This document shows positions 10,727 through 53,353 of a DNA stretch of 64,000 bases, piece by piece. The position numbers and the translations under genes are program-made. The DNA comes from Brockia lithotrophica (GTDB lineage: Bacteria > Bacillota > Bacilli > Thermicanales > DSM-22653), in the NCBI GenBank assembly GCA_003050565.1, contig PEBW01000001.1, positions 186,001-250,000 on the forward strand, written 5' to 3'. The notes below the pieces were generated by a model. The model was not told where the DNA came from. It was given only the letters and a program-made list of their open reading frames with translations, and ran no database searches. Position 1 is the first letter of the stretch, and each line of letters opens with the position of its first letter.

Positions 10727-12091
10727 TCATACGGCCGAAAAACGCTCGGCATACCGCCGAAGGTGTTCTTCGTCGGCGATGTCCTCGCGCAGGGAAAAGC
10801 CCGCCTCCCGAAACGGGGACGCCCACGCGTACGCGCGGCGGCGCGCTTCTTCCCAATCCTCGCCCAACCCCACCACCGTGAGGAGGCGACCGCCCTGGGA
10901 AACGAGGCGGGCATCGTGCGCACGGAGGACCCCGCGCCGGGCGCGCGCGAAGTCCTCCCCCTCTGCCGCGCGCACGTTGGCGTAGTATACACGAAGGAGG
11001 GGGGTATCCCCCCGGGCCACGGGGAGCGTCGGATCGGCGGGATAGGGAAGGGGAAGTCCCCGAACCGGAGCTTCCGGATAGCCGGGCGCGGCGACGACGA
11101 CGCCCACCGCCCGTTCCTCGCAAAAGCGGAGGGCGTCGGGACGAAGGCGGCCCTCGGCGAGCCCGGCGAAGACCGCGCCGAGATCTCCGGTAGCGCGGCT
11201 CAGGAGGATTTGCGCCTCTGGATCGCCCAAGCGCACGTTGAACTCGAGGACGTGCGGCCCTTCCGCCGTCCACATGAGTCCGAGGTAGAGAATCCCCCGG
11301 TACGAAATCCCCCGGCGTTCGAGAGACGCGAGGAGGGGATCGAGGATTTCCGCGCGAACGCGCGCCTCCGCCTCCGGGCCGTATCCCGGCAGCGGGGAAA
11401 ACCCCCCCATTCCGCCGGTGTTCGGCCCGACGTCCCCCGTCCCCAGGCGCTTGTAGTCGCGCGCGGGCGGCAGAAGAACCGCTTCCCCGTCGGCGACGAG
11501 GGCGTGTACGGTAAGCTCCACGCCCTCGAGAAAGCGTTCGACGACGACCCGGCTTCCGGCCTCGCCGAAGCGGCGGGCCTCGAGCATCTCCCCGAGGGCG
11601 GTCCGGGCCTCTCCCTCGTCGCCGGCGACGACGACGCCCTTCCCCTGCGCAAGTCCGTCGGCCTTGATCACGAGTGGATAGGGGCCGACGGCGAGGAGTT
11701 CGTCGGCGTCGGCCAGGCGCTCCACCACGCGAAACTCGGCCGTGGGAATCCCCGCCTCGCGCATGAGCTCTTTGGCGAACACCTTGCTCGCCTCGAGGCG
11801 GGCCCCTTCCCGTCCGGGACCCACCACGGGAATCCCGCGCGTGCGGAGAGCGTCGGCGAACCCGTGAGCCAACGGCTCTTCCGGACCGACGACGACGAGG
11901 TCGACGCGTTCCGCGCGAACGCGTTCGGCAATTTCCTCTGGATCGCTCCAAGGGATCCTCCACACGTCCCCGAGGACGCCCATGACATCCGTCCCCGGCG
12001 TAAAGCTCACGCGCCGGACGCTCGGCGAGCGAAGAAGGGCGACTCCCAGGGCGTACTCTCGACCACCGGACCCCACGACGAGCACGTGCAC
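10727..12091 (-). CDS. purD: Phosphoribosylamine-glycine ligase
   Basis: Second step of de novo purine synthesis: joins glycine to phosphoribosylamine with ATP. ATP-grasp enzyme. N-terminus reads VLVVGSGGREYALG (the family usually has GGREHAL, so His is Tyr here). Later motifs are GLAQGKGVVVA, VVERFLEGVELTVHAL, TGGMGGFSP and EFNVRLGDPEAQ. I place the start at the GTG at 12091, with GGGAGGTG six bases upstream; an in-frame GTG at 12100 lies inside that SD. 454 residues is slightly longer than usual (~420). Last pur gene of the cluster, 70 bases after purH. Confidence 0.94.
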   Translation of the reverse strand: MHVLVVGSGGREYALGVALLRSPSVRRVSFTPGTDVMGVLGDVWRIPWSDPEEIAERVRAERVDLVVVGPEEPLAHGFADALRTRGIPVVGPGREGARLEASKVFAKELMREAGIPTAEFRVVERLADADELLAVGPYPLVIKADGLAQGKGVVVAGDEGEARTALGEMLEARRFGEAGSRVVVERFLEGVELTVHALVADGEAVLLPPARDYKRLGTGDVGPNTGGMGGFSPLPGYGPEAEARVRAEILDPLLASLERRGISYRGILYLGLMWTAEGPHVLEFNVRLGDPEAQILLSRATGDLGAVFAGLAEGRLRPDALRFCEERAVGVVVAAPGYPEAPVRGLPLPYPADPTLPVARGDTPLLRVYYANVRAAEGEDFARARRGVLRAHDARLVSQGGRLLTVVGLGEDWEEARRRAYAWASPFREAGFSLREDIADEEHLRRYAERFSAV

Positions 12092-12161
12092 ACGGGCCAC
12101 CTCCCTGGCACCTCGCGATGAGGGTGCGCACGTTTCCCTATCGGGTTACCCCAATCCCGCA

Positions 12162-13871
12162 TCAGTGACGAAAGACGCGGACGTCCGTGAAGACCATGGC
12201 GATACCCGCCGCGTCGGCCGCCCGAATGACCTCCGAGTCGCGCACGGAACCGCCGGGCTGAACGATCGCCCGCACACCCGCGGCACCGGCGAGCTCTACG
12301 GTATCGGGAAAGGGCAGAAACCCGTCCGACGCGAGGACGGCCCCGCGGGCGCGCTCGCCTGCCTGGCGCAGGGCGATCTCCGCCGAACCCACGCGGTTGG
12401 GCTGCCCCGCCCCCACCCCTACCGTGACCCCGTCCCGGGCGAGGACGATGGCGTTCGACGTCACATGGGCGGACACCGTCCAGGCGAGGCGCACGCTCGG
12501 CCAGAGCTCTTCCGGAACCGGGTGGGCGCCCACGATCCGGAAGGACGGCGCGCGCCGTTCGCGCACGGAGACGAGGAGCCCCCCGCGGACGCTCCGAAGG
12601 TCGAGATCTTCCGCGGGGCGGAGGAACTCCCGAGGGTACACAAAGACGCGCAGGTTTTTCTTGCGCGTGAGGGGTTCGAGGAGCTCAGGGTCCGTCCCTT
12701 CCGGGAGGAGGACGACGTCGAGGAAGATTTCCGCCAGCGCGCGCACGAGCGCCTCGTCGGCGGGCCGGTTTACGGCCACGACTCCGCCGAAGATGGATAC
12801 GGGGTCGGCGTCGTGTGCCCGGCGGTAAGCCTGGAAGACGTCTGCGCCGATCGCCGCCGCCGCAGGCGACGCGTGTTTGAGGACCACCGCGGTCGGGGCG
12901 GAAAAGTCCGCTTCGAGGTCGGCGAGAAGGCGAAGGGCCCGTTCGATGTCGAGGTAGTTCGTGTAGGAGAGGGGCTTCCCGCTCAGGAGGCGAAGATCGG
13001 CCAACGAAGGTCCCGCGGCTCCGGCGAGGCGGAAAAACGCACCGCGCTGATGGGGGTTTTCGCCGTAGCGGAGCTCTTTCCCTTCCACGCCCCAAAAGGC
13101 GACCGCCCGAGGCAGGGCCGAAGAAGCCTCCGACGCTCCCCCACCCGGGGAAACCGTCGCCCCTCCGACGGCGAGAGCTTCTTCCCAAGGGGAAGGGGCG
13201 ATTCCCGCCCGTGCCTCCGCATCTTCCGAAAGGCCCCGGGCGTCCGACGCATCGGGGCCGTCCACGGGCGAAGCTTTTCCCGGTTCTTCGAAACGGCCCT
13301 CCCGAAAGGCGAAAGCGATCGCCAGATCGTAGAAGGCCGTGCGGCGGAACGCGCGTTCGGCGAGCGCGCGCCGCACGGCGAGGGCACGCTCCGGGGAAGC
13401 GTCCAACCCCTCGAGGGCGAGGGGGACGTCTGCAGGGGAAGAGACGACGAAGACGCGCGCGTGGGCTTTCGCCGCGGCGCGGAGGAGGGCGACGCCGCCG
13501 ACGTCGACGAGCTCGACGAGCTCTTCGCCGCGCAGGCCCCTGTCCCGCGCGTCTTCGAACGGGTAGAGGTCGACGACGACGAGGTCGAACGGTACCCCTC
13601 CCGCCGCCTCCACGGAAGAGAGGTCCCCGGGCGTAGGTCGCGCGAGGATCCCCGCAAACACGCGGGGGTGCAGCGTCTTTACGCGCCCTCCCAAGAGCTC
13701 GGAAAATCCGGTCAACGTGTCGAGGGAGACCACGGGAAGCCCGGCCTCCCGCAGGTAGGCCGCCGTACCCCCGGAAGCGTAGAGTTCCACCCCGCGGGCT
13801 GCCAGCTCGCGGGCAAAGGGCAGGTAGGGCGGCTTCGTGTAGAGGCTCATGAGCGCGCGGCGTACGGACAT
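12162..13871 (-). CDS. purH: Bifunctional AICAR transformylase / IMP cyclohydrolase
   Basis: Catalyses the last two steps to IMP. The N-terminal MGS-like domain (residues 1 to about 200) is the cyclohydrolase, with SGGTAAYLREAGLPV, TGFSELLGGRVKTLHP and DLYPFE. The C-terminal transformylase has RYGENPHQRGAFF and the catalytic Lys-His in KHASPAAAAIG. Most bacterial enzymes have KH-x-NPCG here; the form seen is closer to the animal-type KHVSPAGAA. The cyclohydrolase start is also divergent (LMSLYTKPPYLPFA where LLSVSDKTGIVEFA is common). 569 residues is longer than the usual ~512, with an acidic/Ser-rich insertion around residues 205-265. ATG at 13871 with AAGGAGG. Confidence 0.93.
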   Translation of the reverse strand: MSVRRALMSLYTKPPYLPFARELAARGVELYASGGTAAYLREAGLPVVSLDTLTGFSELLGGRVKTLHPRVFAGILARPTPGDLSSVEAAGGVPFDLVVVDLYPFEDARDRGLRGEELVELVDVGGVALLRAAAKAHARVFVVSSPADVPLALEGLDASPERALAVRRALAERAFRRTAFYDLAIAFAFREGRFEEPGKASPVDGPDASDARGLSEDAEARAGIAPSPWEEALAVGGATVSPGGGASEASSALPRAVAFWGVEGKELRYGENPHQRGAFFRLAGAAGPSLADLRLLSGKPLSYTNYLDIERALRLLADLEADFSAPTAVVLKHASPAAAAIGADVFQAYRRAHDADPVSIFGGVVAVNRPADEALVRALAEIFLDVVLLPEGTDPELLEPLTRKKNLRVFVYPREFLRPAEDLDLRSVRGGLLVSVRERRAPSFRIVGAHPVPEELWPSVRLAWTVSAHVTSNAIVLARDGVTVGVGAGQPNRVGSAEIALRQAGERARGAVLASDGFLPFPDTVELAGAAGVRAIVQPGGSVRDSEVIRAADAAGIAMVFTDVRVFRH

Positions 13872-13957
13872 GTCCGAACCTCCTTCTCCGAACCTCCCGC
13901 CAACGCCTTTCTCACGAAAGAACGGAATCGAGGACCGCGAAACGATCCAAACAACGG

Positions 13958-14632
13958 TTAAACCCCAGGTTCTCCTTCCTGCAAGAAGCGCACCCGCCTA
14001 CCCTCGAGGACGAGTCCTTCGCGGAGAATCCGGGAGAGCACAGCCGGGTACAGACGGTGCTCGACGCGCTTGATCCGTGCCGCCAGCGTCTTCGGAGTGT
14101 CCGTAGGTCGCACGTCCACGGAACGTTGGGCGACGATCGGACCTGTGTCCACGCCTTGGTCCACGAGGTGGACGGTCGTGCCGGTCACCTTGACACCGTA
14201 GGCGAGGGCTTGCCCGACGGCGTCCTTGCCTGGGAAGGCGGGAAGGAGCGCCGGATGAAGGTTGAGGATCCGCCAAGGGTAGGCGCCGAGGAGCGTAGGG
14301 CCCACGAGGCGCATGTACCCCGCGAGGACAAGCCACCGCGGGGCAAAAGGCTTCAAAAAGGCGAGGATTGCCTCCTCAAAGGCCGCCTTGTCGGGAAAGT
14401 CCCGAACCGACCGGGCGAAGACCTCGCGCCCCAGGCGGCGAAACTTCCGCACGACGGGTGCCTCGGGTCGGTCGCTCACGAGTGCGACGACGCGGTAGAC
14501 GCCTTCCCGGCGGACGAGTTGTACGGCGTTGGACCCCTCGCCCGAGGCGAACACGGCGACGGGTACCGGCTCCGCCCCAGGACGCCATTCCGGGGGGATC
14601 TCGAGGCGGTCGGCGTGTTCTTCTGCGGACAC
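13958..14632 (-). CDS. purN: Phosphoribosylglycinamide formyltransferase (10-formyl-THF dependent)
   Basis: Third step of purine synthesis: formylates GAR. The fold start is VPVAVFASGEGSNAVQLV. The active site has Asn and His in LNLHPALLPAFPGKDAV and the catalytic Asp in VDQGVDTGPIVAQ. The GTG at 14632 is preceded by GGGAGGGAGGAG. The product has about 22 extra N-terminal residues before the first strand, giving 224 residues against a usual ~195. Lies 86 bases before purH and 151 bases after purM; the purM-purN gap contains a tandem repeat. Confidence 0.94.
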   Translation of the reverse strand: MSAEEHADRLEIPPEWRPGAEPVPVAVFASGEGSNAVQLVRREGVYRVVALVSDRPEAPVVRKFRRLGREVFARSVRDFPDKAAFEEAILAFLKPFAPRWLVLAGYMRLVGPTLLGAYPWRILNLHPALLPAFPGKDAVGQALAYGVKVTGTTVHLVDQGVDTGPIVAQRSVDVRPTDTPKTLAARIKRVEHRLYPAVLSRILREGLVLEGRRVRFLQEGEPGV

Positions 14633-14670
14633 GGGCTCCTCCCTCCCTGGATTTCTCCTTCTCTACACCC

Positions 14671-14722
14671 CGCGTTGCCCGCAAACGGCGCGCGGCCGCG
14701 TTGCCCGCAACCGGCGCGCGGC
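14671..14722. repeat. Two-copy 26-bp tandem repeat between purM and purN
   Basis: Two adjacent 26-base units, 14671-14696 and 14697-14722, both beginning CGCGTTGCCCGCAA and ending GGCGCGCGGC. They differ at one position (A versus C). Each is very GC-rich and can fold on itself. It lies in the 151-base purM-purN gap. Confidence 0.85.
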
Positions 14723-14783
14723 GAGAAGACCGCCTCACGCAAACCTCGCTTCGATGTGAAAATGGCGCGGGCCGCGGAAATGT

Positions 14784-15845
14784 TCACGCGGGGAGGTGTC
14801 CGCCGTACCGGAAACGTACGGCGCCCCCTTCCCCGCCCTGGCCCTGTTCTACGAGGCGACCGAGGACGACCGGCTTTTCTCCGAGATCCTCAAGCGCCCG
14901 CCGCACGTCGCCGAGGCGTTCGGGGGCGACGACGAAGACGAAACCGATCCCCTGATTCCACACGGCATACGCCTCGCGGTCGTCGAGGTTTGCGGCCGCC
15001 TGCGCGCGCCGAAAGATTTCGGGAACTTCCCACGCCTCGACCGCGACTTCCGCCGCGAGCGTGGAGGGAAACACGCGTGCAAGGTTTTCGGGAAACCCCC
15101 CGCCGGTGATGTGCGCGGCGGCCTTGGCGCCCGCGGCAAAGGCCGCCGCGGCCTGGTGAACGTAGAGCCGCGTCGGGGTGAGGAGCTCTTCGGGGGTGAA
15201 GAGGTCCGGGTCGCGGGCGAGGAGGGCGCGAAGAAGGCTGTAGCCGTTTGCGTGAAACCCGGAACTCGCAAGGCCAAGAAGGAGGTCGCCGGCGGCCGGC
15301 GCCGGACGCGCGAGGGAGGCTCGGGGGGCGACGCCCACCGCAAACCCCGCAAGCTCGAGGGAGCCTTCCGGAAGCATTCCCGGAAGTTCGGCGGTTTCGC
15401 CCCCCAGGAGAACTGCCCCGACCTCACGAAGGGCGTCGACCATGCCCGCGATGAGGCGTTCGATCGCGTCGGGATCGAGGCGACCCATGGCTACGTAGTC
15501 GAGGAAGAAGAGCGGCTGTGCTCCTTCCGCCGCCAGGTCGTTCACGTTCATCGCCACGAGGTCCCAACCGGCAACTTCGAGGCGACCGTGGGCCTGGGCG
15601 AGAAGGAGCTTCGTCCCTACGCCGTCGGCCGAGGCGAAGAGCACGGGGTCGTCGAGCCCGTCCGGCAGGCGAATCGCGCCGGCAAAGGCACCGATTCCGC
15701 GCAAAACTTCCGGGCCGTGCGTGCCTCGGACGAGTTCGGCTACGCGTCGGACGACTTCCGCACCCCGATCGAGATCGACGCCGGCGCGGCGGTAGGCTTC
15801 GGCGTAACCCGACGCACCGGAACCCGGCTCGCGTGGCCGCTCCAT
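14784..15845 (-). CDS. purM: Phosphoribosylformylglycinamidine cyclo-ligase (AIR synthetase)
   Basis: Fifth step of purine synthesis: ATP-dependent closure of FGAM to AIR. Motifs: YAEAYRRAGVDLDRGAEVV, ADGVGTKLLLAQ, DLVAMNVNDLAAEGAQPLFF, LLGGETAELPGM, GLASSGFHANGYSLLR and HITGGGFPENLARVFP, in the order of the PurM/PurL superfamily. The ATG at 15845 follows GGAGG at good spacing; the much longer open frame upstream is a shadow of purF and purL. 353 residues, normal. 35 bases after purF. Confidence 0.95.
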   Translation of the reverse strand: MERPREPGSGASGYAEAYRRAGVDLDRGAEVVRRVAELVRGTHGPEVLRGIGAFAGAIRLPDGLDDPVLFASADGVGTKLLLAQAHGRLEVAGWDLVAMNVNDLAAEGAQPLFFLDYVAMGRLDPDAIERLIAGMVDALREVGAVLLGGETAELPGMLPEGSLELAGFAVGVAPRASLARPAPAAGDLLLGLASSGFHANGYSLLRALLARDPDLFTPEELLTPTRLYVHQAAAAFAAGAKAAAHITGGGFPENLARVFPSTLAAEVAVEAWEVPEIFRRAQAAANLDDREAYAVWNQGIGFVFVVAPERLGDVRRALEDLGEKPVVLGRLVEQGQGGEGGAVRFRYGGHLPA

Positions 15846-15880: not shown

Positions 15881-17221
15881 CTACCCGTCTCGGGGCACGA
15901 GGCAGGCCGTGCACACGCTCCCCCGGGGAAAGAGGGCGGCAAAGGTTTCGAAGTCGAGGTAGGCGAGGGAATCCGCACCGATGTGCGCGGCGAGTTCCCC
16001 GCGGGACATCACGCCCATGGGCGGCGTTTCGGGGCCGAAGAACCCGTAGACGCAAGGGGCGGTCACCGGAGGGGAGGCGATGCGGACGTGGACCGCGCGC
16101 GCCCCCGCGTCGCGCAGAAGCTTGAGGAGGCGCGCCGCCGTGGAGCCGTACACGAGCGAATCGTCCACGAGGACGAGGCGCTTCCCGTGCACGAGCTCGC
16201 GGACGAGGGCGAACTTGGCCTCGAGGACGGCATCCCGTTCCCCCTGGGCGAGGAGAAAGCTGCGGGGCGCGGCGGGGGACTTCACGAGCACCCCTTCGAG
16301 GGGAAGACCGAGGGTCTGAGCGTACCCGAGCGCCTGGGGAAAGGCCGTATCCGGGGCGTACACCACCATGTCCGCCTCTGCGGGCGCCCGGCGAGCCAAC
16401 TCCTCCCCCAGGCGCTTTCGCGCGGCGTACAGGCTCACGCCGAAGAGGCGGCTGTCGGGTCGGGAAACGTACAAGAGTTCGAAGGCGCACACGCCGCGGG
16501 CGAAGGAGTTCGCATCGCGCCGAGGCGCGGGCTCTTCCCCGCCCTCCGGCGTCCCGGGGAGGGGACGCGGAATGTAGCGCATTTCGCTTCCGTTCCACCG
16601 CCAGCGGCTCACCTGACCCGCCCGAACTTCGGAGACGGAAAATCCCAAGGCTTCCAAGGGAGACGTCTCGCTCGCCAGCGCCACGAGATCCCCCTTGCGC
16701 CCCACGAAGAGGGGGTAGACGCCGGTGGCGTCGCGAACCGCGGAAAGCCCGTCCCGCTCCACCATCACGGCCGCGTAGGGGGAAGGCAAGGCGGCAGGCC
16801 AGGGGCGGCCTGCAAGGACGGCGCGGACCCCCTCGGCCTCCTCGGGAGCCAGCGGCCCGAGGTAGGCGACGGCTCCTTCGCCGGACGCGACGTCCGAAGG
16901 CGAGACGTCGATCCACCCGCCCCCTTCGGCGAGCGCGAGCGCCAGAGCCCCCAGCGCGCCGCTCCCGAGGCGAACGGGGGAGGACTCCCCGATGCCTACG
17001 GCCACGCGGGGCCCTCCGTCTCGTCCGCGCTCCTCCGTTTCGCCTTCGGGTACGGAAACGCGGCGCTCGGGAGGGGTGAGCCCGAGGACGCGCCCGCCGC
17101 GGTGGAGGAGAGCGTGAACGGCCCGCGAGGCGAGGGATTGCACTTCTTCTTCGACCTTCGGTCCCCCCTTTCCTCCCCCGAGCGGGGGTAGGTAGAGGGC
17201 AAAGAGCCCCCCGCCTTTCAC
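15881..17221 (-). CDS. purF: PurF-like amidophosphoribosyltransferase with a dead glutaminase domain
   Basis: Homologous over its whole length to PurF, which makes phosphoribosylamine from PRPP and an ammonia source. The start is fixed by the GTGA overlap with purL. Where PurF has the mature N-terminal ECGVFGIW, this protein has GGGLFALY, so nucleophile Cys becomes Gly4; there is no Cys just upstream in frame. HRG is kept at residues 40-42, but the Arg of GHVRYAT, the HNGN oxyanion motif and the glutamine-binding Asp are not recognisable. In contrast all four Fe-S ligands are kept: Cys245 (GVCAFELLYVSRPDS), Cys390 (SPPVTAPC), Cys437 and Cys440 (CTAC). The PRPP motif is VDDSLVYGST (352-361; usual VDDSIVRGTT), and the flexible loop is changed to VKSPAAPRSF from IKNRYVGRTF. 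446 residues. It is either an ammonia-only enzyme or a decayed PurF. Confidence 0.85.
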   Translation of the reverse strand: MKGGGLFALYLPPLGGGKGGPKVEEEVQSLASRAVHALLHRGGRVLGLTPPERRVSVPEGETEERGRDGGPRVAVGIGESSPVRLGSGALGALALALAEGGGWIDVSPSDVASGEGAVAYLGPLAPEEAEGVRAVLAGRPWPAALPSPYAAVMVERDGLSAVRDATGVYPLFVGRKGDLVALASETSPLEALGFSVSEVRAGQVSRWRWNGSEMRYIPRPLPGTPEGGEEPAPRRDANSFARGVCAFELLYVSRPDSRLFGVSLYAARKRLGEELARRAPAEADMVVYAPDTAFPQALGYAQTLGLPLEGVLVKSPAAPRSFLLAQGERDAVLEAKFALVRELVHGKRLVLVDDSLVYGSTAARLLKLLRDAGARAVHVRIASPPVTAPCVYGFFGPETPPMGVMSRGELAAHIGADSLAYLDFETFAALFPRGSVCTACLVPRDG

Positions 17222-19659
17222 GGCGCTTCCCCCTCCCGATAAGAATCTGCGCCGTGCGCCGAAGAAGCGGCTCCTCCCTCCGAAGGCTCTCCCCGGAAAG
17301 GCGGGCGGGAAACGAGGCCGACAAGGGCGAGCTCGCGGGGGAGCCAAGACCCGATTTCCGAAGGCCCTACGCGGACGGGCATTCCCTCGACTTCTACGCC
17401 TTCTCGCCGCACCTCCCCCAAGGAGAAGACCCGGAGTCCTTCGCCGCACGCCCACGCGAGAAAGTCTTTTGCGATCGCCCGCTTTACGACGAACACGCCG
17501 TAGGCCCCTTCGCCGAAAAGGAGGGCAAGACTCTCCGCAGGCGCACGGTCGAGTTCGCCGAGGGCGACACCGCTCGCCGAAGAGGCGGCCATCTGGAGAA
17601 GGGTGCCGAGAGCTCCGCCTTCGCGGACGGCGCGCGCCGCAAGAATTCCGCGGCGGAGGGAGGTGTCGGCGTAGAGGCGCACGAGCGCGTTGCGCAGTCG
17701 TCCCTCTCCCTCGCGCTGCGGCGCCAGGGGAATCCGGGCCAGGCGCGCCAGAGCTTCTCCCGCCCGGGCGAAGAGTTCCTCTGCCCCGTAAGCCGCAGCG
17801 AAGAAAGGGAGAAGGCGCAGGGGCCCGCTCCCTACGAGAAAGACGGGGGCCGCTTCGTCCACGGCCTCTTCGTCCCACGTTCCGGGAACTGCGGAGTGCG
17901 GCGTAGAACCGAAGGCCACGAGAAGCGGGGTGGGGAGAATCCCCCGTTCCGCCGTCTCGTTGTACAGGCTCGCGTTGCCGCTCACGAAAGGCACCGAGGC
18001 GGCGCGCGCGGCGGCGGAAAACCCGAGGACCACCTCGACGAGCGAGCGGTACACGTCGTCCCGCTCCGGCGAACCGAAGTTCAGGTTGTCCGAAAGCCCG
18101 AGGGGAGTAAGGCCGCGCACCGCGAGGGAGCGGAGGACGGCAAAGACGGCCATCTGCGCCGCCCCGTAGGCGTCCAACGCGAAGGCGTTCCCCTCTCCGG
18201 CTCCGCTCATTCCCCACACGGCGGGGCCTTCAGTCCCTACGCCCACGAGGACCACGTCGTCAAAGACCCACGGCGAAGGGTCTCCTCCCTCCTGCGAGGG
18301 GTCCCCCACCTTCTCCGCGCCGTTCGGCCGCACGTTCCCTCCTTTCCGGACGAGGCGCCGTGGAAAGCGCGGCGAGGTGAGGTAGCGTCGGAGGAGATCC
18401 CGAACCGTCGAAGCGTCGAGGCGTACGAGGCCCAGCCGTTCGAGGAGCTCGCGCTCTTCGGGGAAGACGAGTTCGGTCTCCGCCCGTTCGCGCCGCGCGG
18501 CGGGGGAGCCTTGCGGCACGCCCTCCCGCGTCTCTTCTGCCGCCCGGACGGAGGCGACCACGTCTTCGCGCACGACCGGTACGACGTCCGTAAGCTCCGC
18601 CAAGGGTACCTCCGCAAGGAGGTCCTCGCCTCGACGGACGGAAAACGTACCGGACGACACGAGGTGCCCCACGACGGCCGCCGGCACCTGAAACGCGCGG
18701 AAGTGGGTGAGGAGGTCTTCGGCGTGTGCCGGATCGGCTACGACGAGAACCCTTTCTTGGGTTTCCGCGAGGAGGAGCACCTCCGGAGGGAATTCCCGCA
18801 GACGGGGGAAGCGCTCGAGGTCGAGGACCACGCCGCCCGGTCCGCGACTCGCGAGCTCGGCGGCCGAACCCGCTACACCTCCCGCCCCCATGTCCTGTAC
18901 GGCGACGACCCACCCGCGTCGGGCGGCGGCGAGCAAGGCGTCCATCACGCGCCGACCCATCCGAGGATCTGCCGGGGGGACGAGAGGAGGAGCGTCGGAA
19001 CTCCCTTCCGCTACGGGGGGGAGTACTTCCTCGGAGTCGAAGGCGCGCGAAGCAAAGGCCGCCGCTTCGTACCCCGCCCCGTCCACGGGACGGCCTGCGT
19101 AGACGAGCACGTCCCCGTCCCGGCCACCGCGTGCGGAAAGACGGGGGCCTACGATTTCGCCCAGGGCAAAGACGTTTACGACGGGGTTTCCCGCGTAGGA
19201 AGCGTCCACGGCGTACTCTACGTACGCCCCATCACCTGCGCCGAATTCGGCGACGTAATCCGCAAAGCCCCGGACGAGCGTGCGCGTGAACTCCACGTCC
19301 TCCGCCACGTGCACAGGCCCTACGCGGAGGAGCGCCGCAGCGAGTCGCGGCTCTGCCCCCATCGTAAAGACGTCCCGGTACAGGCCGCCGATCCCCGTGG
19401 CCGACCCGGCATAGGGGTCGACCTTGGACGGGTGGTTGTGGCTCTCGATCTTAAACGCCGCCGCTCCGCCGTCTGCGGCTACCACCCCTGCGCCCTCGCC
19501 CGGCCCGGCGAGAACCTGAGGGCCCTCGCGGGGGAGAAGGGCGAGAAGGCGTTTCGTGTGGCGGTAGCTCATGTGCTCGGAAGTGAGGATCTCCTTGAGG
19601 GCGGAGGCGATCCTCGCGGCGGTCGCTCCCTCCCGCGGAGTGCGCTGCGTCCCTGCCAT
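17218..19659 (-). CDS. purL: FGAM synthase large subunit (small-type PurL)
   Basis: Converts FGAR to FGAM with ATP and ammonia; in Bacillus-type systems ammonia is channelled from PurQ with the help of PurS. Motifs: LTSEHMSYRHTKRLL (usual SEHCSYK, Cys is Met here), PGEGAGVV, FKIESHNHPS, GGLYRDVFTMGA, VQDMGAGGVAGSAAEL, SDNLNFGSPE and VSGNASLYNET. 813 residues against about 740 in Bacillus. ATG at 19659 with GGGAGG upstream. It follows purC by 65 bases, exactly where purS and purQ lie in Bacillus; neither is present. It overlaps purF by 4 bases. Confidence 0.95.
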   Translation of the reverse strand: MAGTQRTPREGATAARIASALKEILTSEHMSYRHTKRLLALLPREGPQVLAGPGEGAGVVAADGGAAAFKIESHNHPSKVDPYAGSATGIGGLYRDVFTMGAEPRLAAALLRVGPVHVAEDVEFTRTLVRGFADYVAEFGAGDGAYVEYAVDASYAGNPVVNVFALGEIVGPRLSARGGRDGDVLVYAGRPVDGAGYEAAAFASRAFDSEEVLPPVAEGSSDAPPLVPPADPRMGRRVMDALLAAARRGWVVAVQDMGAGGVAGSAAELASRGPGGVVLDLERFPRLREFPPEVLLLAETQERVLVVADPAHAEDLLTHFRAFQVPAAVVGHLVSSGTFSVRRGEDLLAEVPLAELTDVVPVVREDVVASVRAAEETREGVPQGSPAARRERAETELVFPEERELLERLGLVRLDASTVRDLLRRYLTSPRFPRRLVRKGGNVRPNGAEKVGDPSQEGGDPSPWVFDDVVLVGVGTEGPAVWGMSGAGEGNAFALDAYGAAQMAVFAVLRSLAVRGLTPLGLSDNLNFGSPERDDVYRSLVEVVLGFSAAARAASVPFVSGNASLYNETAERGILPTPLLVAFGSTPHSAVPGTWDEEAVDEAAPVFLVGSGPLRLLPFFAAAYGAEELFARAGEALARLARIPLAPQREGEGRLRNALVRLYADTSLRRGILAARAVREGGALGTLLQMAASSASGVALGELDRAPAESLALLFGEGAYGVFVVKRAIAKDFLAWACGEGLRVFSLGEVRREGVEVEGMPVRVGPSEIGSWLPRELALVGLVSRPPFRGEPSEGGAASSAHGADSYREGEAP

Positions 19660-19724
19660 CCTCGTCGTCCCTCCCGTGGGTTTCGTTCCCGGAGCTCGTC
19701 TACCTCGAGCACCGCCCCGCCTCC

Positions 19725-20548: not shown

Positions 20549-21904
20549 CTACGCATCCCCATCCGCAAACTTTGGACCCAAAACGCGGCGGTACCGCTCC
20601 GCTTCGTGGCGGAGGAAGTGCCCCACGAGGGCGTCGAAAAAGCGCTCTTCCGCATCCGCCTCGCTTCCCGAGGCGACCGTGGGAAAGGCGCGCTCCACCG
20701 CCGAGCGAAGCTCGGGGTCCTCGAGGATGCGCCGCAGAAAAGAGGGCGGACCCTCGAGGGCGCGAAAGGCGAGTTCCTGAAGTCGCGCGTACGCATCCTC
20801 GCGCCGAAACCCTTGGGCGACGAGGAGGTCGAGGAGGAGGGATGAGGCGAAGAGCCCGCCCGTCCGCCGCAGGTTGTCCCGCATGCGCGCGGGGTCGACC
20901 CTGAGGTGCGCGAGAAGCTCGCGCGTGCGCCAGAGCATGTAGTGGAGAACCGTCGTCGCGTCGGGGAAGATCACGCGTTCCACGGAGGAGTGGGAGATGT
21001 CCCGTTCGTGCCAAAGGGGGACGTTTTCGAACGCGGCGAGCATGTAACCCCGGAGGAGACGCGCTAGGCCCGAGACGTTTTCAAAGCCCACGGGGTTCCG
21101 CTTGTGCGGCATCGCCGAGGAACCTTTCTGGCCGGGGGCAAACCCTTCCTCGACCTCTTCCACTTCGCTTCGCGCGAGGTGGCGCATCTCCACGGCGAGG
21201 TGTTCGAGGGTGGTGCCCAGAAGCGCGAGGGCGGCGAGGTACTCGGCAAAGGTATCGCGCGGGAGAACCTGTGTCGCCGCGGGTGCCGGCTCAAGGCCGA
21301 GGCGGTGCAAGGCCGCCTCTTCGATTTCCGGGGGAAGGTGGGAGAACGTGCCCACGGGCCCGGCGATCTTACCCCGCGCCGCACGCCGTGCCGCTGCCCG
21401 CAGGCGCTCTTCGCCGCGGCGGAGTTCGTCGTAAAAGCCGAGGAGCTTGAGACCAAAGGTCGTCGGCTCCGCCGCCTTCCCGTGGGTACGGCCGAGGACG
21501 GGAACGCCGCGGTAGGCGAGGGACATGTCCCGCAGGAGGTGCAAAAGACGGGAGAGCTCGGCGAGGAGGAGGTCGGAAGCCTCCCGGAGGAGAAGCGCCC
21601 ACGCCGTGTCCACGACGTCGGCACTCGTAAGCCCGTAGTGTACCCACCGCCCGGCGGGACCGACTTGCTCGGCGACGTGTTCGACAAAGGCGATCGTGTC
21701 GTGGCGCGTGCGCGCCTCGATCTCCGCTATGCGCGCAGGGTCGATGCGCACTCCCTGCTTGAGGGCGGCGAGGTCTTCGGCCGGGACGACGCCCGCCTCG
21801 GCGAGCGCTTCGAGCACGGCAAGCTCCACCTGCCACCACGCGTGAAATCGGTTTTCTTCGGACCAGAGGCGCGCCATCTCCGGCCGCGTGTAGCGCGCGA
21901 TCAC
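20549..21904 (-). CDS. purB: Adenylosuccinate lyase
   Basis: Removes fumarate from SAICAR and from adenylosuccinate. N-terminus IARYTRPEMARLWSEENRF and the fumarase/ASL signature GSSAMPHKRNP are typical, as are TSADVVDTA and RTHGKAAEPTTFG. 451 residues against a usual ~430. The GTG at 21904 follows GGGAGG with short spacing but gives the expected N-terminus. Lies 45 bases after purE, leaving no room for purK. Confidence 0.96.
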   Translation of the reverse strand: MIARYTRPEMARLWSEENRFHAWWQVELAVLEALAEAGVVPAEDLAALKQGVRIDPARIAEIEARTRHDTIAFVEHVAEQVGPAGRWVHYGLTSADVVDTAWALLLREASDLLLAELSRLLHLLRDMSLAYRGVPVLGRTHGKAAEPTTFGLKLLGFYDELRRGEERLRAAARRAARGKIAGPVGTFSHLPPEIEEAALHRLGLEPAPAATQVLPRDTFAEYLAALALLGTTLEHLAVEMRHLARSEVEEVEEGFAPGQKGSSAMPHKRNPVGFENVSGLARLLRGYMLAAFENVPLWHERDISHSSVERVIFPDATTVLHYMLWRTRELLAHLRVDPARMRDNLRRTGGLFASSLLLDLLVAQGFRREDAYARLQELAFRALEGPPSFLRRILEDPELRSAVERAFPTVASGSEADAEERFFDALVGHFLRHEAERYRRVLGPKFADGDA

Positions 21905-21949
21905 CTTCCTCCCGCCTTTCCCAAGGAATTTCGGACACCGGACGCCCGC

Positions 21950-22462
21950 CTAGCCTTCGCCCGGCGGTTCCGCCTCCACCTCGCGCCGCAGGTTGCGGTC
22001 GAGGGCGCGGATTTCGTCGCGCCGCGCCGCACGGTGCGAGCGAAGCCGTGCGGCGAGTTCGGGGTCTTCTAGGGCGAGGATGTGCAGGGCGAGGTAGGCG
22101 GCATTTTCTCCGGCGTTTACCCCCACGGTGGCCACGGGAACGCCCGGGGGCATCTGGGCGATGGACAAGAGCGCGTCTACGCCGTGGAGAGGACCCACGG
22201 CGAGGGGGAGACCGATCACGGGAAGGACGGTTTGGCCCGCAACCACCCCCGGGAGGTGCGCCGCAAGTCCCGCGGCGGCGATGACTACACGCACCCCGCT
22301 CTGCTCGGCCTCGCGGACGATCGCGAGGACGTCTTCGAGATTTCGGTGAGCGGAGGCGATCCGGATGTCGCTCGGTTCGCCGAAGCGGGCCAGGACGTCG
22401 AGAAGCGGCCGAACGCGCTCGCGGTCCGAAGCGCTGCCCAAGATTACCAGAACACGCGCCAA
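21950..22462 (-). CDS. purE: AIR carboxylase / N5-CAIR mutase catalytic subunit
   Basis: Makes CAIR. Motifs: LVILGSASDRERV, IASAHRNLEDVL, AAAGLAAHLPGVVAG, TVLPVIGLPL, GVDALLSIAQMPPGVPVATVG and GENAAYLALHIL. Class I enzymes use N5-CAIR made by PurK; class II enzymes use AIR and CO2 directly. SAHR resembles class I (class II has SAHK), but no purK lies here and the following TP is NL. TTG start at 22462, with GGAGGG and GGAGG just upstream. First gene of the pur cluster. Confidence 0.93.
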   Translation of the reverse strand: MARVLVILGSASDRERVRPLLDVLARFGEPSDIRIASAHRNLEDVLAIVREAEQSGVRVVIAAAGLAAHLPGVVAGQTVLPVIGLPLAVGPLHGVDALLSIAQMPPGVPVATVGVNAGENAAYLALHILALEDPELAARLRSHRAARRDEIRALDRNLRREVEAEPPGEG

Positions 22463-37979: not shown

Positions 37980-39116
37980 TCACCCCCGTAGGACGCGGGC
38001 GAGTCGCGGCCCGAGTTGTGTGAGGACCTCGTAGGCGATCGTCCCCAGTCGGTCGGCGACTTCCCACGGCGAAATGGATTCGGTCCCCTGCGTTCCGAGA
38101 AAGACGACGCTGTCGCCCACGGAAGCCTCCGGTACGTCGGTCACGTCGACGAACAGGGCGTCCATGCTCACGCGACCCACGATGGGTACGCGTCGGCCCC
38201 GCACGAGTGCCTCTCCGCGCCCGCCTCCGAGCGCCCGGAAGATCCCATCTCCGTACCCCAAAGGCACGACGGCGAGACGCGTAGGTCGGCGTGCCTCGAA
38301 GCCGCCGCCGTATCCCGCCGTTTCCCCGGGGGCGAGTAGGTGGAGTTGGGCGATCGGTGCCGCAAGCCGAAGAACGGGGCGCAAAAAGGCAAAGGAAGAC
38401 GCGATGCGCGGTGAGGGGGGAACGCCGTACAGGGAAATCCCCAAACGGACGAGTTCGTAGCTCCGGTCGGGGAAGCGGACGAACCCCGCGCTGTTGTTTA
38501 CGTGGCGCAAGGGGGGCGTGAGCCCTTCCGCATCCAAACGCGCGAGCAGGCGGGCAAACCGTTCGTGCTGCCGCTCGGCATCGTCTACATCCGGTTCGTC
38601 GGCCCGGGCCAGGTGCGTGTAGATCCCCTCCACCTCGACCTTGGGTACCTCGCGCAGGACGCGGAGCACGTCGACGACCTCTTCCTCCTGGGCAATCCCC
38701 CAGCGGTGCATCCCCGTGTCCACCTTCACGTGGACCTTGAGGCGGGGAAGGCTCGACTTTAGGGACGTGCGCAGCCGCGGGACGAAGGCCGGATCGAACA
38801 CGGTGACCGCAATCCCCTGGGCTTGGGCGTCGGGAAGGCAATCGGCGTCCACGGGTCCGAGGACGAGGATGGGCGTGTCCACCCCGAGGGTCCGGATCTC
38901 GAGCGCTTCGCTCAGGGTGGCCACGGCAAAGTAGGACACGCCGATTTCCGCAAGCAAAGGGGCGACCTGGCGAACGCCGTGGCCGTAAGCGTTTGCCTTG
39001 ACGACCGCCATGATTCCCGACGACCGCGGAAGTAGGCCCGTGAGAGCGAGGACATTGTGGCGCAGGGCATCCGCATCGAGTTCTATGCGCGAGGCACGAC
39101 AGGTCCGAGGATCCAC
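37980..39116 (-). CDS. alr: Alanine racemase
   Basis: PLP enzyme making D-alanine for peptidoglycan. N-terminus ASRIELDADALRHNVLAL, PLP lysine in VVKANAYGHG, VKVDTGMHRWG, and the second catalytic Tyr in AGYGGGFEARRP; C-terminal VGRVSMDALFVDVTDVP is typical. 378 residues. GTG at 39116 with GAGGAGGGG. Its TGA stop is in frame with tsaE just downstream. Separated from ydcC by a terminator, so it likely has its own promoter. Confidence 0.95.
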   Translation of the reverse strand: MDPRTCRASRIELDADALRHNVLALTGLLPRSSGIMAVVKANAYGHGVRQVAPLLAEIGVSYFAVATLSEALEIRTLGVDTPILVLGPVDADCLPDAQAQGIAVTVFDPAFVPRLRTSLKSSLPRLKVHVKVDTGMHRWGIAQEEEVVDVLRVLREVPKVEVEGIYTHLARADEPDVDDAERQHERFARLLARLDAEGLTPPLRHVNNSAGFVRFPDRSYELVRLGISLYGVPPSPRIASSFAFLRPVLRLAAPIAQLHLLAPGETAGYGGGFEARRPTRLAVVPLGYGDGIFRALGGGRGEALVRGRRVPIVGRVSMDALFVDVTDVPEASVGDSVVFLGTQGTESISPWEVADRLGTIAYEVLTQLGPRLARVLRG

Positions 39117-39155
39117 ACCGCTCCCCTCCTCGTCCCCATCATCTTACCCGACGCG

Positions 39156-39185
39156 AAAAGGGGAGGCAAGAAGACCTGCCTCCCC
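39156..39185 (-). terminator. Terminator after ydcC
   Basis: Minus strand: perfect 9-bp stem GGGGAGGCA / TGCCTCCCC with an 8-base loop, followed by TTTTC, 40 bases past the ydcC stop and before alr. Confidence 0.85.
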
Positions 39186-39224
39186 GACAAATTCCCTGCA
39201 CACCTGCGTCCCCGGTACGTTTGC

Positions 39225-40244
39225 CTACTTGCGCGGAAGGAAGATAGACTGGGCGACGGCAACGAGTTCTTCTTCTGGCGCGTCCGTGCTCATGAGGCGG
39301 ACGTCAAGACCGCGGTAGGTGAAGCGGAGGATCCGCAAGTCGTCGCTCCGCGTGAGTCCTCCCCACGTGAAGAAGAGGTCGACGGGCACCCCGTCTTGGG
39401 CGGTCACCGTGAGCTCCCGCGCCGGCGAAACGGTGAGGGTAAAGCTCCGGCTTCCCCCGTAGCTCACGGTGAGGGTGGGAACGCCGTCGTCGTAGGTAAG
39501 CTGCGATCCCTTTCGCACGACTCCCTCCGGGAGGTACGTAGGTTCGACGCCCATGAGGTCCTGGGCGCTCTGCGCCGCCGTGCCCGCCTGCGAAGTCGGG
39601 CCCTGCCCGAACTGCTTCTCCACGGCCTCCCTCCGGAAGTCCTCGGGCGAAAGCGTCGGATCCCAGGAAAACCCCTCGACGACGAAACTTGCAAGCGTCT
39701 GGCCTTCGGAATCCAAGACGTCTACCTGCTTGGGAGCCAGGGTCTCGCGGTCGAAGCGGACGACTTGCTGGGAGAGGAGGCGGTTGGGGGCGCGAGCCTT
39801 GACGCGAAAGACGTACGTCCCGTTCTCTACCTCCATCGCCCTGCCTTCGTCGGCGCGGACGCTCTCGACGAGGGATTCGAGGAGGTAGATCTGCCCCCCT
39901 TCTCCCGGCCAACGGCTCTGAAAGCGGAAGGTCTTTTTGAGTTCGGGCGCGAAGATAAACACGCCCTCCTCGTTTTTCAAGACGACCTGCCGGGTCTCGT
40001 CCTTCTGTCCGAGGATCTCCACCCGGTAATACGAAGGCTTAAGGTGGGCGACGCGCACGCGGTACGCGACGGGCTCCCCGCCCGTCTTGAGCGTGAGCGT
40101 CCCCGTGGTTTCGTACGCCTTAGCCTCCTCCGCGCGCTTGGCAATCCTCCCGACGACGTCTTCCGGACGATCGGATGCGCGACAACCCGCAACGACGAGC
40201 AGGAGAAGCGTGGCCAAGACCCCGAGGATGTACCCTCGCCGCAC
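39225..40244 (-). CDS. YdcC-like lipoprotein (LolA-type sorting-protein fold, sporulation-associated)
   Basis: Lipoprotein with lipobox VVAGC, Cys21. The mature part resembles the LolA/LppX beta-fold: KAYETTGTLTLKTGGEPVAY, YYRVEILGQKDETRQVVLKN and GVFIFAPELKKTFRFQS are the usual opening strands, and a later SYGGSRSFTLTVSPA strand pair follows. The acpS-ydcC-alr order is the Bacillus order, supporting the YdcC name. The role is uncertain; relatives have been linked to sporulation and germination. 339 residues. Confidence 0.82.
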   Translation of the reverse strand: MRRGYILGVLATLLLLVVAGCRASDRPEDVVGRIAKRAEEAKAYETTGTLTLKTGGEPVAYRVRVAHLKPSYYRVEILGQKDETRQVVLKNEEGVFIFAPELKKTFRFQSRWPGEGGQIYLLESLVESVRADEGRAMEVENGTYVFRVKARAPNRLLSQQVVRFDRETLAPKQVDVLDSEGQTLASFVVEGFSWDPTLSPEDFRREAVEKQFGQGPTSQAGTAAQSAQDLMGVEPTYLPEGVVRKGSQLTYDDGVPTLTVSYGGSRSFTLTVSPARELTVTAQDGVPVDLFFTWGGLTRSDDLRILRFTYRGLDVRLMSTDAPEEELVAVAQSIFLPRK

Positions 40245-52618: not shown

Positions 52619-53353
52619 CTATACGCGTACGCGCGAGAGCGCTGCTTCGTCCGCGATTACCCACACCTCGGGATGGCGGTGGAGGGAAGAAGCGGGAAGC
52701 TCGGGGTCGAAATCGTTCAGCGAAAAGAGCCTGGCCATCGCCTCGGCTTTGCTCTCGCCGCTCGCCAGGAGGATGATCTCGCGGGCGCGGAGGATCGTCC
52801 CAAGGCCCATGGTGATGGCGTGTGTGGGAACCTCCTCCGGACGGTCGAAGAAGCGGGCGTTTGCCCGGCGGGTGCTTTCCGTAAGTTCGACCACGTGCGT
52901 ACGGCTGTCCAAGGAGGTTCCCGGCTCGTTGAACCCGATGTGCCCGTTCGGGCCGATGCCGAGAACCTGCAGGTCTATCCCTCCGGCGGCTTCGATGGCC
53001 GCCTCGTAGCGCGCGCACTCCTCAGCGAGGTCCGGCGCGATTCCGCTCGGAATATCCCACCGCCCCGCGGGCAAGTCGACGTGGTCGAAGAGGTGCTCCC
53101 GCATGAAGTACGCGTAGCTCTGAGGGTGGTCCGGAGCGAGGCCGACGTATTCGTCGAGGTTGAAGCTGCGGGCCTCGCGAAAGCTCAGCTTTCCCGTCCG
53201 ATAGGCAGAAACAAGCCGCTCGTACAGACCCACGGGAGTCGACCCCGTCGCCAGCCCCAAAGTGAGTCTCGGGTTGGTCGACATGCGCTCGTACACGATC
53301 GCAAAGGCTTCGTCGGACATCGCGGCGTAGTCCTTGACGCGGATGAGGCGCAT
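52619..53353 (-). CDS. nagB: Glucosamine-6-phosphate deaminase
   Basis: Interconverts glucosamine-6-phosphate and fructose-6-phosphate plus ammonia. LGLATGSTPVGLYERLV, the catalytic Asp in FNLDEYVGL, GPNGHIGFNEPGTSL (His and Glu of the active site) and THAITMGLGTIL are diagnostic. 244 residues. No nagA or sugar transporter lies nearby, so a catabolic operon is not indicated. In excess ammonia the enzyme can run towards GlcN6P. ATG at 53353 with AGGGGG eight bases upstream. Confidence 0.94.
   Translation of the reverse strand: MRLIRVKDYAAMSDEAFAIVYERMSTNPRLTLGLATGSTPVGLYERLVSAYRTGKLSFREARSFNLDEYVGLAPDHPQSYAYFMREHLFDHVDLPAGRWDIPSGIAPDLAEECARYEAAIEAAGGIDLQVLGIGPNGHIGFNEPGTSLDSRTHVVELTESTRRANARFFDRPEEVPTHAITMGLGTILRAREIILLASGESKAEAMARLFSLNDFDPELPASSLHRHPEVWVIADEAALSRVRV

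Follow-up and report, generated by a model that had tools for sequence, protein, structure and literature searches.

In the genome of Brockia lithotrophica examined here (G000), PurF has very probably become an ammonia-dependent enzyme, as part of a family-wide loss of glutamine nitrogen that two lineages later reversed by regaining the missing genes as one block; this reading rests on sequence, and the enzyme activity is inferred. The gene lies in a 64,000-nucleotide stretch of DNA (the window; Table 1). The glutamine-splitting site of PurF is gone, apparently because G000 as a whole no longer uses glutamine to carry nitrogen and depends on free ammonia instead. A first-pass annotation of the window had described the altered PurF but missed this cause, which is the loss of the glutamine machinery elsewhere in the window and in the genome.

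Table 1. Features of the window (window coordinates)
Feature	Position	Strand	Observation
purF	15881..17221	(-)	446 aa, GTG start; Cys1 replaced by Gly4; Arg73, Asn101 and Asp127 gone; Fe-S cysteines 245/390/437/440 kept
purL (the only purL)	17218..19659	(-)	small type, divergent; PRK01213 377 bits, below the cut-off of 648
purC-purL spacer	19660..19724	(-)	short, from ORF boundaries; a Bacillus-type operon has purS and purQ here
purM, purN, purH, purD	10727..15835	(-)	ORFs; remainder of the operon for de novo purine synthesis, downstream
purB, purE	20549..22462	(-)	ORFs; upstream
guaA	24695..25999	(-)	class I glutaminase reduced to a short N-terminal remnant that has no Cys; intact synthetase half (guaA_Cterm 402 bits)
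nagB	52619..53353	(-)	TIGR00502 279.4 bits, cut-off 236.9
Island insertion point of G001, uninterrupted here	39075..39458		both G001 flanks align, with a 384-base overlap

Alignment with ordinary PurFs placed Gly4 of the window protein opposite Cys1, as the first-pass annotation had read it, and the ORF boundaries agreed that the start is set by a 4-base overlap with purL (GTGA at 17221-17218). The Arg, the HNGN loop and the glutamine Asp, previously called unrecognisable, were indeed missing: GALAL stands in place of GHVRY, YLG in place of the HNGN/TNG loop, and about 35 alignment columns, among them the SDTEV segment with Asp127, are deleted. The N-domain is shortened relative to the Bacillus subtilis type, and the NCBIfam purF profile (TIGR01134) gave 191.6 bits, did not reach its cut-off of 350 and aligned over profile positions 158-427 only. 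The PurF ortholog of G001, a genome of the same genus, is 85-86% identical and has the same residues at every changed site, and in that of G003, which represents another genus of the family, Cys1 is likewise replaced by Gly (TGGLFAAVF). Because G001 shares every change, sequencing error was ruled out, in line with the earlier argument that a single error could not explain the site. An upstream start that would add a Cys was rejected as well; the open frame upstream sits inside purL and has no PurF similarity.

The Cys motif was intact in each of 36 PurFs drawn from other genomes of the class, a sample that included two island copies (see below) and six PurFs from genomes where glnA was missing or at best weakly matched, and it was kept in 79 of 79 readable relatives from genome_contigs. 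Given this conservation, the Gly at Cys1 is not a chance substitution. Scanning genome_contigs with the window PurF alone gave no match, and scanning by alignment returned only distant, Cys-bearing PurFs.

Cys245, Cys390, Cys437 and Cys440 aligned with the four Fe-S ligands of the Bacillus type in both a small and a 35-sequence alignment, which bears out their earlier assignment. The first-pass annotation had further held that the transferase site was changed. It is altered, since the PRPP loop reads VDDSLVYGST rather than VDDSIVRGTT (R358 to Y) and the flexible loop KSPAAPRSF rather than KNRYVGRTF; by sequence it is not lost, since the invariant D353, D354, S355, G359 and T361 are kept. The PurF of G003 retains both VDDSIVRGTT and KNRYVGRTF. 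As this protein combines Gly for Cys1 with an ordinary PRPP loop, the putative order of events suggested is that the Cys nucleophile was lost first and the PRPP loop altered later. In the PurF tree the native copies sat on very long branches, and their position was left unused.

The AlphaFold model of the window PurF had a mean pLDDT of 76.6 and a pTM of 0.82, with an N-domain that was weak in parts. All of its top 17 PDB matches were PurF structures (TM, query, 0.66-0.73), so that the expectation of a retained PurF fold was met in the prediction. Pairwise dN/dS between G000 and G001, proposed earlier as a check together with the structural comparison, was 0.186 for the whole gene, 0.339 for the glutaminase-like part and 0.093 for the transferase part; the neighbouring purD, purH, purB and purN gave 0.05-0.12 (purM was left out). 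The data support the inference that the glutaminase half is dead and that purifying selection maintains the Fe-S/transferase half. We considered whether purF is instead decaying in an organism that takes up purines. The faster evolution of the glutaminase half (dN/dS 0.34), the changes at the conserved transferase residues R358, Y317 and N315, and the survival of the native purF-like ORF of G004 merely as a fragment of 203 aa, alongside an island copy that is intact, all speak for decay, which we nevertheless judge very unlikely: the gene is a single copy in a complete-looking pur operon, its transferase half evolves like its neighbours (dN/dS 0.09) and it is 86% identical in G001, and neither the PRPP-loop invariants nor the Fe-S residues have been lost. 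The related idea of a decaying duplicate, which according to the first-pass annotation would follow from a second intact purF together with relaxed selection, fails too, as purF is single and its overall dN/dS is 0.19. A whole-genome search found no second purF in G000. Two weak matches were discarded, one of 21.8 bits at C3:57173 that corresponds to an AsnB-like protein and one of 27 bits on C8 that spans residues 287-378 only.

The only purF of G000 belongs to a purine pathway that is otherwise close to complete, with the window order purE-purB-purC-purL-purF-purM-purN-purH-purD. Neither purS nor purQ was found in the operon or the genome; the PurQ search was empty and the island PurQ and PurS queries gave no match. 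The N-terminal ~200 aa of E. coli PurK had no homologue in the whole of G000, and PurE without PurK may perhaps take CO2 or bicarbonate itself, in analogy to the ammonia economy proposed here. Outside the operon, GuaA covers only positions 176-512 of the PRK00074 profile, has no GATase Pfam match and is 89% identical to its G001 ortholog. For NagB we propose that it makes glucosamine-6-P from fructose-6-P and ammonia, standing in for the absent glmS.

The same pattern recurred across G000, which was examined in full (1,687,502 bases; a draft, 97% complete). Searches of the genome found no glutamine synthetase (glnA) and no GlmS. tblastn with the relatives' PurQ, PurS, HisH, PdxT, CarA, GltB, GatD and GlnA gave no match, and with their NadE, GuaA, AsnB, CarB, PdxS, HisF and MurT it matched the ammonia-using half only. 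E. coli queries detected TrpE, TrpD without TrpG, glutamate dehydrogenase (GDH, 54% identity) and NagB (43%); with such queries GltB, AmtB, GlnK and AsnA were absent and GltD-like matches were weak only. Class I GATase matches were limited to two, a PuuD-like hydrolase and PyrG, which keeps the domain with the Cys of GICLGMQ changed to Gly and FHPE changed to FYPE (His to Tyr). One AsnB-like protein starts MSGLWG, with Ser for Cys, and a second starts MNVYAV; NadE lacks the nitrilase domain. As far as sequence can tell, glutaminase function has been lost from nearly every amidotransferase of G000, with the synthase parts conserved. Automatic annotation still labels some of these proteins "glutamine-hydrolysing", and because such labels persist, losses of this kind can escape notice.

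The amide might still come from glutamine or asparagine if a separate, unrecognised glutaminase or amide hydrolase fed ammonia to PurF and the other enzymes. G000 does encode GatA-like amidases, and distant glutaminases could evade profile searches. A six-frame motif scan of all G000 ORFs, however, found a single class I triad, that of the PuuD-like protein, and no Ntn glutaminase; there is no glutamine synthetase to provide the donor, and loss of the built-in glutaminase has affected many unrelated enzymes together. We accordingly give this alternative very little weight.

The tRNA-dependent GatCAB is complete in G000, with an intact Lys-Ser-Ser amidase triad in GatA, and is the only recognisable glutamine amidotransferase of the genome, which has two tRNA-Gln genes. 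Without free glutamine the amide donor for Gln-tRNA remains open, ammonia and asparagine being candidates. In GatA of both G000 and G001, two motifs that ordinary GatA conserves are altered despite the kept triad, GYYDAYY to ESFVDLY and MYxND to ELTQD, and a different amide donor might be used. G004 carries, outside its island contigs, a second, ordinary GatA (G004:C1:186615-188006; 676 bits); its divergent native GatA scored 537 bits.

The losses extend to other genomes of the family. Native PyrG has Gly for Cys in all five (G000, G001, G002, G003 and G004). G002 and G003 have no glnA, no PurQ and no GlmS match above the cut-off; no purF was seen in G002 and no recognisable guaA in G003, each of which may be an assembly gap or a real loss. 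G001 and G004 carry degenerate native copies together with an additional full set that includes glnA. Their native PyrGs are 56% identical to each other and their native GatAs 47%. G004 also contains a 203-aa ORF (G004:C34, L037:3965-4573) that adjoins transposase-like genes. It lacks a glutaminase part but has a PRPP loop of the PurF type and CLGCF at its end, and is probably what is left of the native purF, the island copy of this genome being intact.

Loss of glnA is rare in the class. The gene was present in 390 of 400 genomes, almost all at least 90% complete, and three of the ten without it belong to this family. The other seven are G174, G258, G267, G285 (family f3, genus g72), G345, G399 and G046. 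Two of these gave no full-length purF and were left out of the Cys1 judgement; the remaining five, which look like ordinary glutamine users or auxotrophs, and one genome with a weak glnA match had a full-length PurF with Cys1 kept in every case (6/6). Since these six control genomes keep Cys1, glnA loss or simple glutamine auxotrophy is insufficient to explain G000, where profile and motif searches found none of the intact, Cys-bearing amidotransferases expected of a glutamine auxotroph.

The additional set of G001 and G004 forms an island of about 60-65 kb on colinear contigs (G001 C3:222448-245073, C11, C9 and C7; G004 C17 and C18), the pieces being 78-94% identical between the two genomes and island PyrG 90%. 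As read from its translations, it encodes glnA, gltB, a nadE with nitrilase domain, glmS, asnB, carA-carB, urea transport and urease, a second purL, purQ, purS, guaA, purF, pyrG, purA, hisH-hisF, pabB-pabA, a fused trpEG, pdxS-pdxT, murT-gatD, dapF and an aminotransferase. We know of no other genome with practically all glutamine-dependent enzymes in one such cluster. In the PurF tree the island PurFs grouped with family f6 with full support. A known plasmid was rejected as the identity of the island, as only urtA and hisF fragments matched.

Assembly gaps or binning errors could in principle account for the absences, and contamination for the island: the G000 draft is 97% complete, contamination is estimated at 2-3% for G001 and G004, and island GC (0.54-0.63) differs from that of the host (0.66-0.69). 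We find this hardly credible. The catalytic-residue and domain losses lie inside present genes, so they are independent of gaps, and they recur in five genomes. In G001, contig C3 joins chromosome that is syntenic with G000 to the island, which starts about 2 kb after the alignment ends at C1:225458 of G000, and contig C5 resumes at C1:225075; because both flanks align there and G000 is uninterrupted, the insertion could be placed in the window. The island is demonstrably an inserted block in G001, and the IS elements on the island contigs resemble those of the host genome.

The scheme that we infer for G000 is as follows. Nitrogen would enter only as ammonia, through glutamate dehydrogenase and by direct use in PurF, PurL, GuaA, PyrG, CarB, HisF, PdxS, TrpE, NadE, AsnB, MurT and NagB. 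PurF would make phosphoribosylamine from PRPP and free ammonia rather than glutamine, although no enzyme data exist, and the only glutamine formed would be that made on tRNA by GatCAB, whose amide donor would be ammonia or asparagine. The loss of glutamine nitrogen would date to the family ancestor, and two lineages would have regained glutamine metabolism through horizontal transfer of one large gene block from an f6-like donor. The wider statement, that a family of free-living thermophilic Bacilli gave up the glutamine carrier, that purines, pyrimidines, amino sugars, NAD and amino acids came to take their nitrogen directly from ammonia, with glutamine made on tRNA only, and that two lineages regained a single block from another family, seems to us probable, though with appreciable doubt. 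A few of the absences in G000 could be gaps, an explanation that does not reach the domain losses within genes that are there; the intact GatA triad leaves some glutamine or asparagine hydrolysis possible; and R358 to Y with the altered flexible loop could have weakened the PurF transferase. As the E. coli AmtB query found no ammonium transporter, the organism would need ample ammonia.

Glutamine synthetase and the glutamine amidotransferases are usually considered near-universal outside host-dependent cells. If our reading is true, a lineage without them that kept the ammonia-using halves shows that free ammonia can sustain all biosynthesis, and naturally uncoupled PurF, GuaA, PyrG, AsnB, CarB and PurL become available for channelling studies. 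The findings also suggest that a lineage can shed its nitrogen-carrier metabolism and later take it up again as one module. Our literature searches found nothing relevant on an ammonia-only or glutaminase-less PurF or genome, and no description of a cell-wide switch to free ammonia in a free-living bacterium; the Brockia genome papers (including PMC5928048) do not mention glutamine in their main text.

Ammonia-dependent activity of the PurF transferase domain is known in vitro. The chemistry proposed here, PRPP plus NH3, is the same, except that in G000 no other activity would be left and evolution would have fixed this state. Short NadE is naturally ammonia-only, and TrpE, HisF and PdxS can act without their own glutaminase; these too are synthase halves working with free ammonia, but they are known one at a time, whereas the set in G000 is nearly complete in one genome. 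Bacillus subtilis PurF (PDB 1gph, 1ao0) shares with the window PurF the fold, the four Fe-S cysteines, the DDS-V-G-T PRPP loop and the place in the pur operon; the window protein differs in lacking Cys1, Arg73, Asn101 and Asp127, in its short N-domain, and in having R358 changed to Y and NRYVGRTF to SPAAPRSF. The obligate endosymbiont Blochmannia vafer is reported to have lost glutamine synthetase (PMC3017870) and is likewise a bacterium without glnA; it contrasts with G000, which is a relative of free-living chemolithoautotrophs and in which the glutaminase domains themselves are gone.
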